Assembly (NCBI GenBank): GCA_003094535.1
Contig: NATV01000109.1
Span: forward strand, 22,503-86,502
Source of the DNA: a gamma proteobacterium symbiont of Ctena orbiculata
GTDB lineage: Bacteria; Pseudomonadota; Gammaproteobacteria; Chromatiales; Chromatiaceae
Direction: 5' to 3'
DNA length: 64,000 nucleotides
In this document: one piece after another, positions 40,018-45,253 of the stretch
Numbering within the stretch: the stretch's first letter is position 1
Layout of the letters: each line of letters opens with the position of its first letter
Notes under the pieces: model-generated
Databases searched by the model: none
Told to the model about the DNA's origin: nothing
The model's input: only the letters and a program-made list of their open reading frames with translations
Translations under genes and position numbers: made by a program

Positions 40018-42561
40018 GTGAATCCAACCACCACAGACCCCAGAACTGATCTCCATAGCGGGTTTACTGCAGCCTTAGAATCCTTACGTAAATACACCAT
40101 AATCGCCATTGTTGCCTGGACCGTTCTCATCGCCATCGCGATTACATGGACGATATACGATCAGAGAAACCGGGAGTTCGACACCGCACTCGGCGTTGCC
40201 CGGGCGTATTTTCAAAAGGATCAGTCAGTACGCCAGTGGGGTGCCACCCAGGGTGGTGTCTACGTTAAGATCTCCGAGCACACACAACCCAATCCTCATC
40301 TGAAAAACCTGCCGCATCGGGATGTGACCACCGATGCGGGCCAGAAACTCACCCTGATGAACCCGGCCTATATGATCCGCCAGATCAATGAACGCTTCAG
40401 CCGGATGCACAACGACTATATCCACATAACGAGCCTGGATCCGTTGCACGAGGAGAATGAGCCTGACGACTGGGAAGGCTCGGTACTAAAAACCTTTGTC
40501 CAGGAGTCGGACGAGGTGGCGCAAATTGTCGATTTCCGCGGGCAGCCCACGCTGCGGATGATGCGTCCCATGGTTACCAAACAGCGATGCCTGAAGTGCC
40601 ATGAGCAGCATGGTTACAAGGTAGGCGATATTCGCGGCGGCGTCTCCATCGCAATTCCTATGGCGCCCTATCGCAAGGATAGCAGTGAACAGTTGCTATT
40701 GATTGGCACTACGCATGGCGGTATCTGGTTGTGCGGCTTGCTGGGTATCGGTTTCTACACACGCCGCGCACGTACCCACCTCGAAGATCGCCAGGATGCA
40801 ATCCAATCGCTCGCCAGGGCCAGCAACTATAACCGATCGGTTATCGGTGCCCTGGGTGAAGGTCTGCTGGGCTTCGATCAGATGGGGCGCCTGACCTTCC
40901 TCAATCCCGCGGCGGAACAGCTATTGGGTTGGAAGGAAAATGAATTGCTGGGAAAGTCTATTCACGGATTTATCCACTATCTGAAGATCAACGGCGAGCC
41001 TTGTCGAGAGGATGAGTGTCCCATGCTGGCGGTGTTGCATAGCGGAGAATCTCACACTAGCCGCGACGATCAGTTTATGAACCGCGAGCGAATCGCCCTA
41101 CCGATCTCTTATATCGCCACGCCCCTTTTCGATGAGACCCGTGTGGTGGGCGGCGTGGTGGCCTTTCAGGATATTACTGAACAGAAACAGAGCCTGCAGC
41201 GTATCGAATATCTGGCGCATCACGACAGCCTCACCGACTTGCCCAACAGAGTCGCTTTCCTCGAGGCAGTGGATAACGGGCTAGCCAATGCAAGGCGCTA
41301 CGGCCACGGCCTCGCCCTACTCTACCTTGACCTGGATAATTTCGGTGTGATCAACGATAGTGCCGGCCATACCACCGGGGACGAATTGCTGAGACAGGTG
41401 GCAAAACGTCTGCGGCATGAAATACGTCAACCCGATTTTGTGGCCCGTCAAGGCGGTGACGAATTCCTCATCCTGATGGTGCCGGTGATCAAGGATCAGC
41501 AGATAGAGGACATTGCGAGCCAACTGGCCCTGAATGCCACAGCCCTGGCCCAGCGGGTACTCGATGTGATGCACGATCCCTTCCTTGTTGACGGTAGTAC
41601 ATACTATATCAAAACAAGTATCGGCATTAGCCTGTTTCCTGAGGATGCCAAAGACAGAGTGGAACTACTGAAAAATGCCGATGCGGCCATGTACACCGCG
41701 AAAGGAGACGGCCGGGATACCTATGCTCTATATGCCGGCGATCTCGCCCAGCGTATTCAGTATCGCCATATGCTCCAGACCGGGCTCAATCAGGCATTGA
41801 TCAAGGATGAGTTCCGCCTGGTCTATCAGCCCATCGTTGACCTGAACGATGGCAGGATTCTGGCGGTGGAGGCCTTGTTGAGATTGAAATCCGCCACCCT
41901 GGGCGATGTCTCACCCGTGGAATTCATCCCGGTCGCAGAAGAGTGCGGCTTGATTCTTCCCATCGGCCGCTGGGTTTTGCAAACCGCCTGCAAGCAGATG
42001 GCCGAATGGTATGCTATGGACCTGGAGCTTAGGGTAGCGGTCAACCTATCGACCCTGCAACTGCAGCGCGAGGATCTGGAGAGTACCGTACTGCAGGCCC
42101 TGGAGGACGCGCAAATCCCTGCATCGATGCTGATCCTCGAAATCACCGAAGGGGCCACGCTTCACGCTTCCCCAATCGTGATCGACCGGTTACAGCGACT
42201 CCATGAACTGGGCATCGGACTTTGCCTGGATGACTTCGGTACCGGGCACTCCTCCCTCAGCCGCCTGAAGAATCTGCCCGTGGATACCCTGAAGATCGAT
42301 AAGTCCTTCGTCGACGGCGTTGTGACCGAACAGGATGATGAACAGATTGTTTTGACCACCATAGAGTTGGCCAAGAATCTAAACAAGCGAGCCCTGGCCG
42401 AAGGTATCGAGAGTCGCGAACAATGGCAATGTCTAGTGCGTAACGGTTGTCAACGCGGACAAGGTTATTTCTTCAGTCGCCCGGTTGATGCAGCGGCCAT
42501 AGAGGAAATGGTGCGCAACGGCGGTCATTGGAATCAGCCGCAAGAAGTAAAAAAAGCCTAA
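40018..42561 (+). CDS. Tll0287-like (DUF3365) sensor with CxxCH heme motif + PAS + GGDEF + EAL
   Basis: RCLKCHEQHGYKVGDIRGGVSIAIPM; PAS FDQMGRLTFLNPAAEQLLGW; GGDEF VARQGGDEFLIL; EAL VEALLRLKS, LDDFGTGHSSLSRLKNLPVDTLKIDKSFV. Confidence 0.92.
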   Translation: MNPTTTDPRTDLHSGFTAALESLRKYTIIAIVAWTVLIAIAITWTIYDQRNREFDTALGVARAYFQKDQSVRQWGATQGGVYVKISEHTQPNPHLKNLPHRDVTTDAGQKLTLMNPAYMIRQINERFSRMHNDYIHITSLDPLHEENEPDDWEGSVLKTFVQESDEVAQIVDFRGQPTLRMMRPMVTKQRCLKCHEQHGYKVGDIRGGVSIAIPMAPYRKDSSEQLLLIGTTHGGIWLCGLLGIGFYTRRARTHLEDRQDAIQSLARASNYNRSVIGALGEGLLGFDQMGRLTFLNPAAEQLLGWKENELLGKSIHGFIHYLKINGEPCREDECPMLAVLHSGESHTSRDDQFMNRERIALPISYIATPLFDETRVVGGVVAFQDITEQKQSLQRIEYLAHHDSLTDLPNRVAFLEAVDNGLANARRYGHGLALLYLDLDNFGVINDSAGHTTGDELLRQVAKRLRHEIRQPDFVARQGGDEFLILMVPVIKDQQIEDIASQLALNATALAQRVLDVMHDPFLVDGSTYYIKTSIGISLFPEDAKDRVELLKNADAAMYTAKGDGRDTYALYAGDLAQRIQYRHMLQTGLNQALIKDEFRLVYQPIVDLNDGRILAVEALLRLKSATLGDVSPVEFIPVAEECGLILPIGRWVLQTACKQMAEWYAMDLELRVAVNLSTLQLQREDLESTVLQALEDAQIPASMLILEITEGATLHASPIVIDRLQRLHELGIGLCLDDFGTGHSSLSRLKNLPVDTLKIDKSFVDGVVTEQDDEQIVLTTIELAKNLNKRALAEGIESREQWQCLVRNGCQRGQGYFFSRPVDAAAIEEMVRNGGHWNQPQEVKKA

Positions 42562-42704
42562 TGGCCTGCTATGCCCTTAGCGTTAATAGATGGTCGGTGA
42601 AATACCCAAATTTGTCTCCCTTGGTCTCAATGCCTGACTGCCCTAGCGGAGATAACAGGAGAGCAAGAGTGGATACCCATAAAATTCTCATTAACCATGT
42701 ATAA

Positions 42705-43904
42705 TTGGGAATAAACAGCCAACCTGCGGAAACTTCACTGCAGCGCTTAAAACAAAATGGGTCGCTTGGCGAATGGTGCTACGCCTTTACTCTGGGGACG
42801 ATCTTGGAAACAGACAAAATCACACCCAATGCCCCGCTTCTGGCGCTGCTTGCCGCTGTGGCGGCCGTCGTCGGGGCCACCCCCTATCTGTTCTTCATCG
42901 ATACCCTCTGGGTACTGCCACTGGTGGCGATTGGTGCCGCCGCCACACTCTGGGCAAAGGCCCGTAAACTGCGCACCAATGCCACGTCCGAACCAATCCC
43001 GGGTGAATGGATCACAGCCACCTGGAGCCTGGTCGCATACGCCGCCATGATCAGCTTTTCGTTGATTTACTATGCCATCGTTTATTGGTTGATGCGTCTT
43101 GTCATCTACCTGCTGGGACTGGTGAATCTGCAGCTGGATATCTCCTGGGCGGAGACCACGGGCCTGGCCGTGTCGGTCTTTTTTGCAATAACCCTGTACG
43201 CAGTCTCGCTGATAACTGCCGCCGAACTGCCGCGCCGGCTCTACCCGCGCCTGGCCGGAATACGCTCGCCCTATTACGCGCTCTGGCTCACCAATCGCAA
43301 ATGGATCCTGCTTGCGGTTATCGCCGGCATAGCCGCTCTGCTTATCATGATCAGTCTCAACCTTCACCAGTGGTACTGGATTTTTGCCTGCTCCGCGGTG
43401 CCGTTCTACACCGGCTTTCCCATCGCCCAGTCCGGCGAGAAGCGTGAACAGCGTAGAAATCAGGGACTGAAGGCCACCCGGTTGCTTGTGGACGCCTGTG
43501 GTTGGAGCATGGCGCCGCTCGAGGCAAGCGGCGACCCGGAGGTGGACCCGTTCACCGACGAGATCGATTTCATCGCTCGCCGCAACGGCGATTCACTCCT
43601 CGTCGAGGTTGTCGCGGCAGAGGTCGACTGGAAGGTGGCTTCCGGACTGCAAACCGCGGCGCGTATCCTCGAAGAGAAGCTCGCCACGCAGCCATCCGGA
43701 TCGACCCGGCTTCGTCCGCTGCTGATCCTCGTCAGCGATAAGATCGACGCCAGCATAAGCCGCTTCGCCGATATCGAGGAGTTCGATGTCGCGCATGTGC
43801 CGCAAGCCCTGGTGAAGAAGGTGCTGGATGCGAAAGAGGATGCCACACGTCTGACCTCATTGGCGCGGGAGTTGATGCCGGTTGTAGGAGCATCGCATGC
43901 ATAG
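42705..43904 (+). CDS. Polytopic membrane protein with C-terminal restriction-endonuclease-fold-like domain (start uncertain)
   Basis: About 6 hydrophobic segments, then ATRLLVDACGWSMAPLEASG..DPFTDEIDFIARRNGDSLLVEVVAAEVDWKVASGLQTAARIL...RLRPLLILVSDKIDASISRFADIEEFDVAHV; overlaps the downstream TIR gene by 8 nt. Confidence 0.65.
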   Translation: MGINSQPAETSLQRLKQNGSLGEWCYAFTLGTILETDKITPNAPLLALLAAVAAVVGATPYLFFIDTLWVLPLVAIGAAATLWAKARKLRTNATSEPIPGEWITATWSLVAYAAMISFSLIYYAIVYWLMRLVIYLLGLVNLQLDISWAETTGLAVSVFFAITLYAVSLITAAELPRRLYPRLAGIRSPYYALWLTNRKWILLAVIAGIAALLIMISLNLHQWYWIFACSAVPFYTGFPIAQSGEKREQRRNQGLKATRLLVDACGWSMAPLEASGDPEVDPFTDEIDFIARRNGDSLLVEVVAAEVDWKVASGLQTAARILEEKLATQPSGSTRLRPLLILVSDKIDASISRFADIEEFDVAHVPQALVKKVLDAKEDATRLTSLARELMPVVGASHA

Positions 43905-44880
43905 CAGCCTCGATGTCCTCAGCTTCGGCACCGCGAATCGCGAACCGGTTGCAGTCGACCCGGCAGAAGCCCTGCGCGACATGCAGCTGCAGAGCCGACG
44001 CGCGCTGCTGGAAAGTCATCTACAGAAAATCGGCGGCAATCTCAGCGATGAGCAGGTTGAAGATCTCTTTGACATCCAGCTGAAGCGCACCTATTCCTGT
44101 GCCAGAGGCGACGATTGGGAAATCGTATTCCTGGAAGTCCCACGCTGGATACTCAACGACGGCGACAAGGCCCGGGACCTCGATGCGCTGCGGCATGGTT
44201 TCCGGCGTAGGACCGTACGTTTTATATCACCGCTCCTCGATCTCCCCAGTCCCGCTGCTCACCGTCTCTTCCAGGTATGGAAAAACAACGATGGTATCGA
44301 CGCAAAACTCATTCCATGGTCGTACATTGGCCACCTGGAAGACGGCCAAGTCCGCCTGAGCGAACTACTGGATGTCGACACCGACCTAACCGATTCGACG
44401 GATGCGGCATCATCCCCGACGGCCAGACCGGAACCCGTGGCGCGAGACCGCGTCTTTATCAGCTACAGTCATGCCAATCCTGAGTGGTTTCGCCGCCTCG
44501 AGATACAGCTGGCGGGGCTGAGGGAGAGGCTCGAGGTCTGGAGCGATGAAGATATCCCTGTCGGCACAGACTGGTTTCCAAGAATTCAATCCGCACTGGA
44601 TCGCACCAAAGTCGCGATTATGCTGGTGACCCCGGAGTTCGTCGCATCAGACTTCATCCGCAACCATGAAGTACCAAAAATTCTCGAGGCAGCCAACCGT
44701 GGCGATCTAACGCTCTTCTGGATTCTGGTCAGCGACAGCCACTACGACCAGATTGGTCTTGACGACAAGCAAGCACCTCACGACGTCGCCAAACCCCTCG
44801 ATACGCTTACCCGTGCGAAGCGCAATCAGGCGCTCAGAACAATCACCGGTAAAGTACTCGAGGCCTTCGAATCGACCTGA
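43897..44880 (+). CDS. TIR-domain protein with unrecognised N-terminal domain
   Basis: C-term RVFISYSHANPEWFRRLEIQLAGLRERLEVWSDEDIPVGTDWFPRIQSALDRTKVAIMLVTPEFVASDFIRNHEVPKILEAANRGDLTLFWILVSDSHY, a bacterial TIR with candidate catalytic Glu in NHE. Confidence 0.88.
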   Translation: MHSSLDVLSFGTANREPVAVDPAEALRDMQLQSRRALLESHLQKIGGNLSDEQVEDLFDIQLKRTYSCARGDDWEIVFLEVPRWILNDGDKARDLDALRHGFRRRTVRFISPLLDLPSPAAHRLFQVWKNNDGIDAKLIPWSYIGHLEDGQVRLSELLDVDTDLTDSTDAASSPTARPEPVARDRVFISYSHANPEWFRRLEIQLAGLRERLEVWSDEDIPVGTDWFPRIQSALDRTKVAIMLVTPEFVASDFIRNHEVPKILEAANRGDLTLFWILVSDSHYDQIGLDDKQAPHDVAKPLDTLTRAKRNQALRTITGKVLEAFEST

Positions 44881-44950: not shown

Positions 44951-45253
44951 TCAGTCATCGTACTGGACAGCAAAGTTAAATTTACCGTCCGGGTATAAAG
45001 TGAAGGTGCAGCGCGACCATGGCTTGTCTCCTGGAGTGGTCATCTGAGATCTCAGGTCGCGCAGTGCATCACCGATCGCAAATGATTCAACCGGCGGGAT
45101 TTCCGGTTGCATCTTGCCGGCTGGACCTTCACACCAGGCTGTCTGGTTGTCCCATTCATCACCAACCTCGGCCTCAATCCAGGCCCGTTTGTAATCCTGC
45201 GGGCAGACCGCGTTCAAGCGTTGCGCGATATTCAAATATGCATCCGACACCAT
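44951..45253 (-). CDS. YezG/DUF600-like immunity protein
   Basis: 100 aa; IAQRLNAVCPQDYKRAWIEAEVGDEW...IPPVESFAIGDALRDLRSQMTTPGDKPWSRCTFTLYPDGKFNFAVQYDD resembles the immunity protein YezG family pattern. Confidence 0.65.
   Translation of the reverse strand: MVSDAYLNIAQRLNAVCPQDYKRAWIEAEVGDEWDNQTAWCEGPAGKMQPEIPPVESFAIGDALRDLRSQMTTPGDKPWSRCTFTLYPDGKFNFAVQYDD

Follow-up and report, generated by a model that had tools for sequence, protein, structure and literature searches.

Organization of the gene pair

The window, as we call the whole stretch of 64,000 nucleotides that was analysed, carries on its forward strand two consecutive genes with 8 bp in common. The first (42804-43904) codes for a 366-long membrane protein and the second (43897-44880) for a 327-long protein with a carboxyl-terminal TIR domain. 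The features discussed below are the following:

42692-42707, +: promoter-like element TAACCATGTATAATTG, 16 bp, with a -10-like TATAAT at 42700-42705; contains the TTG at 42705
42794-42798, +: Shine-Dalgarno-like GGGGA preceding the TTG at 42804 (start contexts of four copies compared)
42804-43904, +: membrane protein gene, TTG start, 366 aa, orphan family
42831-43427, +: membrane part, about six transmembrane helices (residues ~10-208) predicted from hydropathy and loop charges
43431-43901, +: predicted cytosolic carboxyl-terminal tail, residues 210-366, core 225-335, putative fold
43551-43613, +: FTDEIDFIARRNGDSLLVEVV motif, residues 250-270, nuclease-fold-like, Val replacing the catalytic Lys/Arg
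43886-43890, +: Shine-Dalgarno AGGAG of the TIR gene, within the 3' end of the membrane gene
43897-43904, +: ATG/stop overlap ATGCATAG, 8 bp, present in four of four genomes
43897-44880, +: TIR protein gene, 327 aa
43897-44376, +: orphan amino-terminal domain, residues 1-160
44377-44445, +: variable linker, residues 161-183 (23 residues), dN/dS 0.6-1.06
44446-44865, +: TIR domain, residues 184-323, assigned with Pfam TIR_2, 7qqk and Foldseek
44668-44670, +: codon of Glu258, in SDFIRNHE, putative catalytic glutamate

The overlap of the membrane gene stop with the TIR gene start, described in an earlier note on this DNA, is borne out by its occurrence in identical form in three other genomes, and it suggests that translation of the two genes is coupled. 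A GGAG or GGGAG sequence lies about 6-9 nt 5' of the TIR ATG in every one of the four copies.

The same note had placed the start of the membrane gene at TTG 42705, which is wrong. This codon sits in the block TAACCATGTATAATTG, which does not vary among the four genomes although its flanks do, and it was rejected because its first T is shared with the conserved TATAAT. The conserved start is TTG 42804, since both the conserved protein sequence and the Shine-Dalgarno sequences begin there in the four copies. From this codon onwards the membrane protein of the window is 83-91% identical to those of its relatives, without gaps, and in the relatives the GGGGA of the window is replaced by AGGAG or GGGGAG. 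The block TAACCATGTATAATTG has the look of a promoter serving both genes. A sigma-70 consensus scan gives no site, a good -35 being absent, and the promoter is therefore putative.

The membrane protein

The membrane protein has no match in Pfam or PADLOC (both at E<=1) or in NCBIfam. About six membrane crossings are predicted, and the positive-inside rule leads to a topology with both termini in the cytoplasm. An AlphaFold model built from the alignment of the four sequences places helices at residues 10-25, 37-55, 68-105, 114-140, 165-183 and 187-203; its confidence is low (pLDDT ~41), too poor to settle the fold of the tail. Non-synonymous to synonymous rates (dN/dS) over the whole protein are mostly 0.13-0.17, and the strongest constraint falls on the core of the tail (residues 225-335; dN/dS 0.06-0.12).

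The tail gives no match in Pfam, PADLOC, NCBIfam or PDB sequences. A macro, SLOG or SIR2 partner domain was rejected, the tail having no match to these or to any other nucleotide-binding family. An Mrr-family nuclease was likewise discarded for want of a profile match. The tail shares no homology with the amino-terminal domain of the TIR protein.

The proposal of the earlier note that the tail resembles a nuclease fold stands at the level of a motif. Alignment of the tail to the YraN/UPF0102 profile with hhalign gives a probability of 51% over 21 columns only, a score that none of 400 column shuffles equals. FTDEIDFIARRNGDSLLVEVV aligns there with the GEIDLI...FVEV(R/K) core of the YraN-family nuclease-fold proteins, and the motif (D/G)EID-hydrophobic-E-x-V-x is common to both. 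The wider proposal receives no help from the family libraries, which give no match, or from the structural model, which is uninformative. The tail differs from YraN, which has no membrane part, in the residue taking the place of the catalytic Lys/Arg: all four copies have ExV (VEVV or IEVV) where the catalytic motif is E/D-x-K. Since this change to Val is found in every copy, the tail, if it has a nuclease fold, is probably inactive. We regard the nuclease fold of the tail as a weak lead.

The TIR protein

The carboxyl-terminal TIR domain recognized in the earlier note is confirmed by three approaches. Residues 186-285 match Pfam TIR_2 (PF13676) with E=6.5e-13 and 49.7 bits, for a gathering cut-off of 28; phmmer matches the domain to the TIR-SAVED protein 7qqk (E=3.4e-5); and when Foldseek is queried with an AlphaFold model of low confidence (pLDDT 42), built from the four-sequence alignment, its PDB matches at E<=0.001 are all to TIR domains or to complexes that contain one. 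The product of the second gene is thus a TIR-domain protein by both profile score and fold. Glu258, invariant in the four copies, aligns with chain residue 84 of 7qqk, which we take to be the position of the catalytic glutamate in TIR-SAVED. The domain therefore appears to keep the catalytic glutamate of the NADases, and NADase activity is predicted.

Searches of Pfam, PHROGs and plasmids with the amino-terminal domain (residues 1-160) give no match, and the PDB gives none that is meaningful; the domain is probably a sensor or regulatory part. A nuclease fold was also considered for it and set aside, its YraN match being at the level of the null (one of 200 shuffles was as good).

dN/dS is about 0.09-0.10 in the amino-terminal domain when the more diverged copies are compared and 0.04-0.11 in the TIR domain, and it approaches 1 in the linker against diverged copies. 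Both genes of the pair are under strong purifying selection (omega ~0.04-0.2 in folded regions) and only the linker preceding the TIR domain drifts, a pattern expected where two domains are joined by a flexible linker. Because four homologous copies show these values in their folded regions, the pair is beyond a chance assembly of reading frames.

Distribution of the pair

The pair is carried by four of the 22 genomes of the window's genus, namely the window genome, G842, G845 and G846, and is missing from the other 18. A full-length match to the TIR-protein profile is likewise found in these four only. Conservation across genomes, a check that the earlier note had proposed, supports the two genes as a unit: they occur together, with the same 8-bp overlap, in all four carriers, and never one alone among the 22 genomes. 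When the membrane protein is searched against about 85,000 species genomes, in a scan able to detect close relatives only, two loci are retrieved, L013 in G842 and L012 in G845; each belongs to a metagenome-assembled symbiont of the clam Ctena orbiculata. The genus of the four carriers, in which those records that bear a name are Ctena orbiculata symbionts, is probably Ca. Thiodiazotropha, an assignment made because the endosymbionts of this clam are discussed alongside that name (PMC6712303).

Searches with the membrane protein, its tail and the amino-terminal domain of the TIR protein reveal no further convincing relative in the thin samples of genomes of the class (369), phylum (399) and family (97), and none among plasmids or viral contigs. 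The plasmid matches of the TIR protein are restricted to its TIR domain, and this query has no match in phages. Several candidates were dismissed: a match in G194 (E=2.5e-4, 24% identity) to residues 117-224 of the membrane protein, which comprise transmembrane and adjacent sequence, was judged spurious; one in G206 (E=0.002) falls in an unrelated protein; and the TIR proteins of L038 and L039 are alike in the TIR domain only and have other architectures.

There are known cases of bacterial TIR proteins acting on an animal host. As two of the four carriers come from records of Ctena orbiculata symbionts, the TIR protein of this clam-associated bacterium could be imagined to act on its host by TIR mimicry. 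We hold this to be very improbable: the reading frame opens with a polar segment devoid of a hydrophobic signal-like stretch, and coupling to an inner-membrane protein would not be expected of a host-directed protein.

Genomic context

The window and the complete genome G846 have the pair at the same place, flanked on one side by the V-ATPase operon and on the other by a block coding for a GDSL lipase and an LRR protein; the arrangement in G845, spread over two contigs, appears to be the same as in G846. Between these flanks the window has a GGDEF-EAL gene before the pair and YezG, GH, SCO1 and other genes after it. In G846 the pair is preceded by genes for an integrase and a REP-type transposase-like protein and followed by rhodanese and GST genes. 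The difference in intervening genes indicates that the interval turns over. Relocation of the pair itself from one genomic site to another was considered and abandoned in the case of G846, whose complete sequence shows the same V-ATPase/GDSL interval.

Several elements of this interval can be described further. The Tll0287-PAS-GGDEF-EAL protein is encoded at 40018-42561 of the window, with the V-ATPase operon on one side and the pair on the other, and is not found at that place in G846. Downstream, in the space separating the TIR gene from its next neighbour, a 100-codon ORF on the reverse strand (44951-45253) matches the carboxyl-terminal part of YezG-like immunity proteins (PF04634, E=2.4e-7) and is probably a fragment; most of the region around it is missing from G842 (L013). 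The tyrosine integrase of G846 (L032 6156-7250) ends against the stop codon of V-ATPase subunit D. A second copy of it, 99% identical over 364 aa, is found at G846:C1:2065000-2070000 (L075), where it adjoins 210 bp that duplicate the 3' end of the gene for V-ATPase subunit D. The position of both copies beside this 3' end suggests an element that integrates there. The transposase-like gene, REP-type by eye and with no Pfam match, is located at L032 8783-9778 and at L028 11882-12811; it is found upstream of the pair in G846, in G845 as a fragment and in G842.

The immediate neighbours of the pair are metabolic or housekeeping genes. Proximity to known defence genes, which the earlier note had thought worth checking, was not found: PADLOC detects no defence gene and no CD-NTase among the 20 neighbouring proteins tested, its sole match being the ATPase of a NikR-adjacent ABC transporter, recognized through ATPase models. 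The spot is variable, yet it is no recognizable defence island.

These housekeeping surroundings, together with a distribution that looks vertical and a single shared location, would suit a role other than defence against phages, for example that of a stress or envelope-signalling pair, or of a toxin-antitoxin-like addiction unit, kept in a small clade of symbionts. Such a role is unlikely in our opinion. Presence of the pair is patchy within the genus, integrase and transposase-like genes occur at the site, and TIR chemistry is typical of conflict modules; moreover, the evolution of both genes is that of ordinary folded proteins, and a short ORF of the antitoxin kind is not among them.

Comparison with known TIR systems

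Family searches of both proteins, also suggested in the earlier note, lead to no named defence system beyond the TIR domain. Joined to the conservation of the two genes as a pair, this upholds the view of that note that they form a coupled membrane-protein/TIR module outside the named systems.

Type II Thoeris combines ThsA, a transmembrane-macro protein, with the TIR protein ThsB (PMC11204291). The pair shares this two-gene logic and a membrane protein with a cytosolic carboxyl-terminal domain. It differs in that the macro domain of EcThsA is preceded by residues 1-61 only (PMC11204291), whereas here six predicted helices precede an orphan tail with no macro domain by Pfam or PADLOC, and in that the TIR domain is carboxyl-terminal, behind a 160-aa orphan domain. 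Neither the SIR2-SLOG nor the TM-macro form of ThsA is recognizable, the parts of the membrane protein having no meaningful Pfam match. The PADLOC model of ThsB matches the TIR domain only (E=1.2e-10), and the SAVED-TIR model scores better.

In SLATT-TIR neighbourhoods a SLATT protein with two transmembrane segments is encoded beside a TIR gene (PMC9503650). In these neighbourhoods as in type II Thoeris, the membrane protein is the known or inferred effector and the TIR protein makes the signal. The juxtaposition is the same here, but six helices are predicted for the membrane protein, and Pfam gives no SLATT match. TIR-SAVED, a CBASS effector, provides in 7qqk the solved TIR domain closest in sequence, with Glu258 falling on its residue 84. 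It differs from the TIR protein of the pair by its SAVED domain: the SAVED_TIR model matches through the TIR part only, and the SAVED or STING domain and CD-NTase of CBASS were not found in the pair and among the 20 neighbours tested, respectively. SpbK of Bacillus subtilis has an amino-terminal sensor, a linker and a carboxyl-terminal TIR domain (PMC12847820), the very order found in the TIR protein; the likeness is one of domain order, and SpbK is described as sufficient alone, without membrane partner.

By the features tested the pair is thus not Thoeris, CBASS or SLATT-TIR. These results lower the case for membership in such a system and leave intact that for working like one. What is new with respect to known TIR systems is the orphan membrane partner and the orphan sensor-like domain.

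Possible role of the pair

The pair is probably a small self-contained defence module leading to cell suicide. We lean, tentatively and at a little below an even chance, to a TIR NADase or signal generator endowed with its own sensing domain and acting with a membrane effector, by analogy with type II Thoeris and SLATT-TIR and as a member of neither. A cue from an invader or from damage would be recognized, as in SpbK, by the amino-terminal domain of the TIR protein; TIR domains would then cluster and cleave NAD+; an ADP-ribose-type product, or the clustered TIR protein itself, would act on the membrane partner through its cytosolic tail; and this partner would perturb the membrane, with growth arrest or death of the infected cell as the outcome. 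Since the tail matches no nucleotide-binding family, its gating by a ligand is proposed by analogy.

A defence module is favoured by the intact pair with identical overlap in four of four carriers and its patchy presence in four of 22 congeneric genomes, by a site that turns over and includes integrase and transposase-like genes, by purifying selection on both proteins relaxed only in the linker, by the TIR fold with Glu258 and the six-helix topology with a cytoplasmic carboxyl terminus, and by the precedents of ThsA/ThsB, SLATT-TIR and SpbK. Against it count the metabolic and housekeeping surroundings with no known defence gene among the 20 neighbours, and the confinement to a single genus in which the copies share their location, so that horizontal mobility is at most putative.

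The roles could also be reversed. The earlier note saw the membrane protein as sensor or scaffold and the TIR protein as effector: the former would sense phage DNA entry or envelope stress, or serve as an anchor, and the TIR protein, once released or clustered, would deplete NAD+. We give this order of events a rather low probability. It accords with the membrane gene being first in a translationally coupled operon and with the tail being the most constrained part, which could be a dead protein- or DNA-binding module; direct depletion of NAD+ by single-protein TIR NADases such as SpbK offers a precedent for the effector part (PMC12847820). It is not favoured because the described two-gene systems run the opposite way, their membrane protein being the known or inferred effector (PMC11204291, PMC9503650), and the TIR protein already has an amino-terminal domain of its own that could sense. 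The evidence does not strongly separate this alternative from the membrane-effector reading that we prefer. With a likewise rather low probability, the pair could represent a new class of TIR-membrane defence in which a six-helix protein with a dead nuclease-fold domain is receptor or effector for a TIR signal or assembly.

The pair is a clear candidate for a defence system, short of a demonstrated one. If it defends against phages, TIR-membrane signalling would gain a new type of membrane partner and an orphan sensor domain, and the question would arise whether TIR products could be read by partners other than macro, SLOG or protease. The setting is that of marine clam symbionts, in which phage defence has been little studied. 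The window genome is rich in TIR domains, with eleven TIR_2 matches, two of them in one double-TIR ORF on contig C142.
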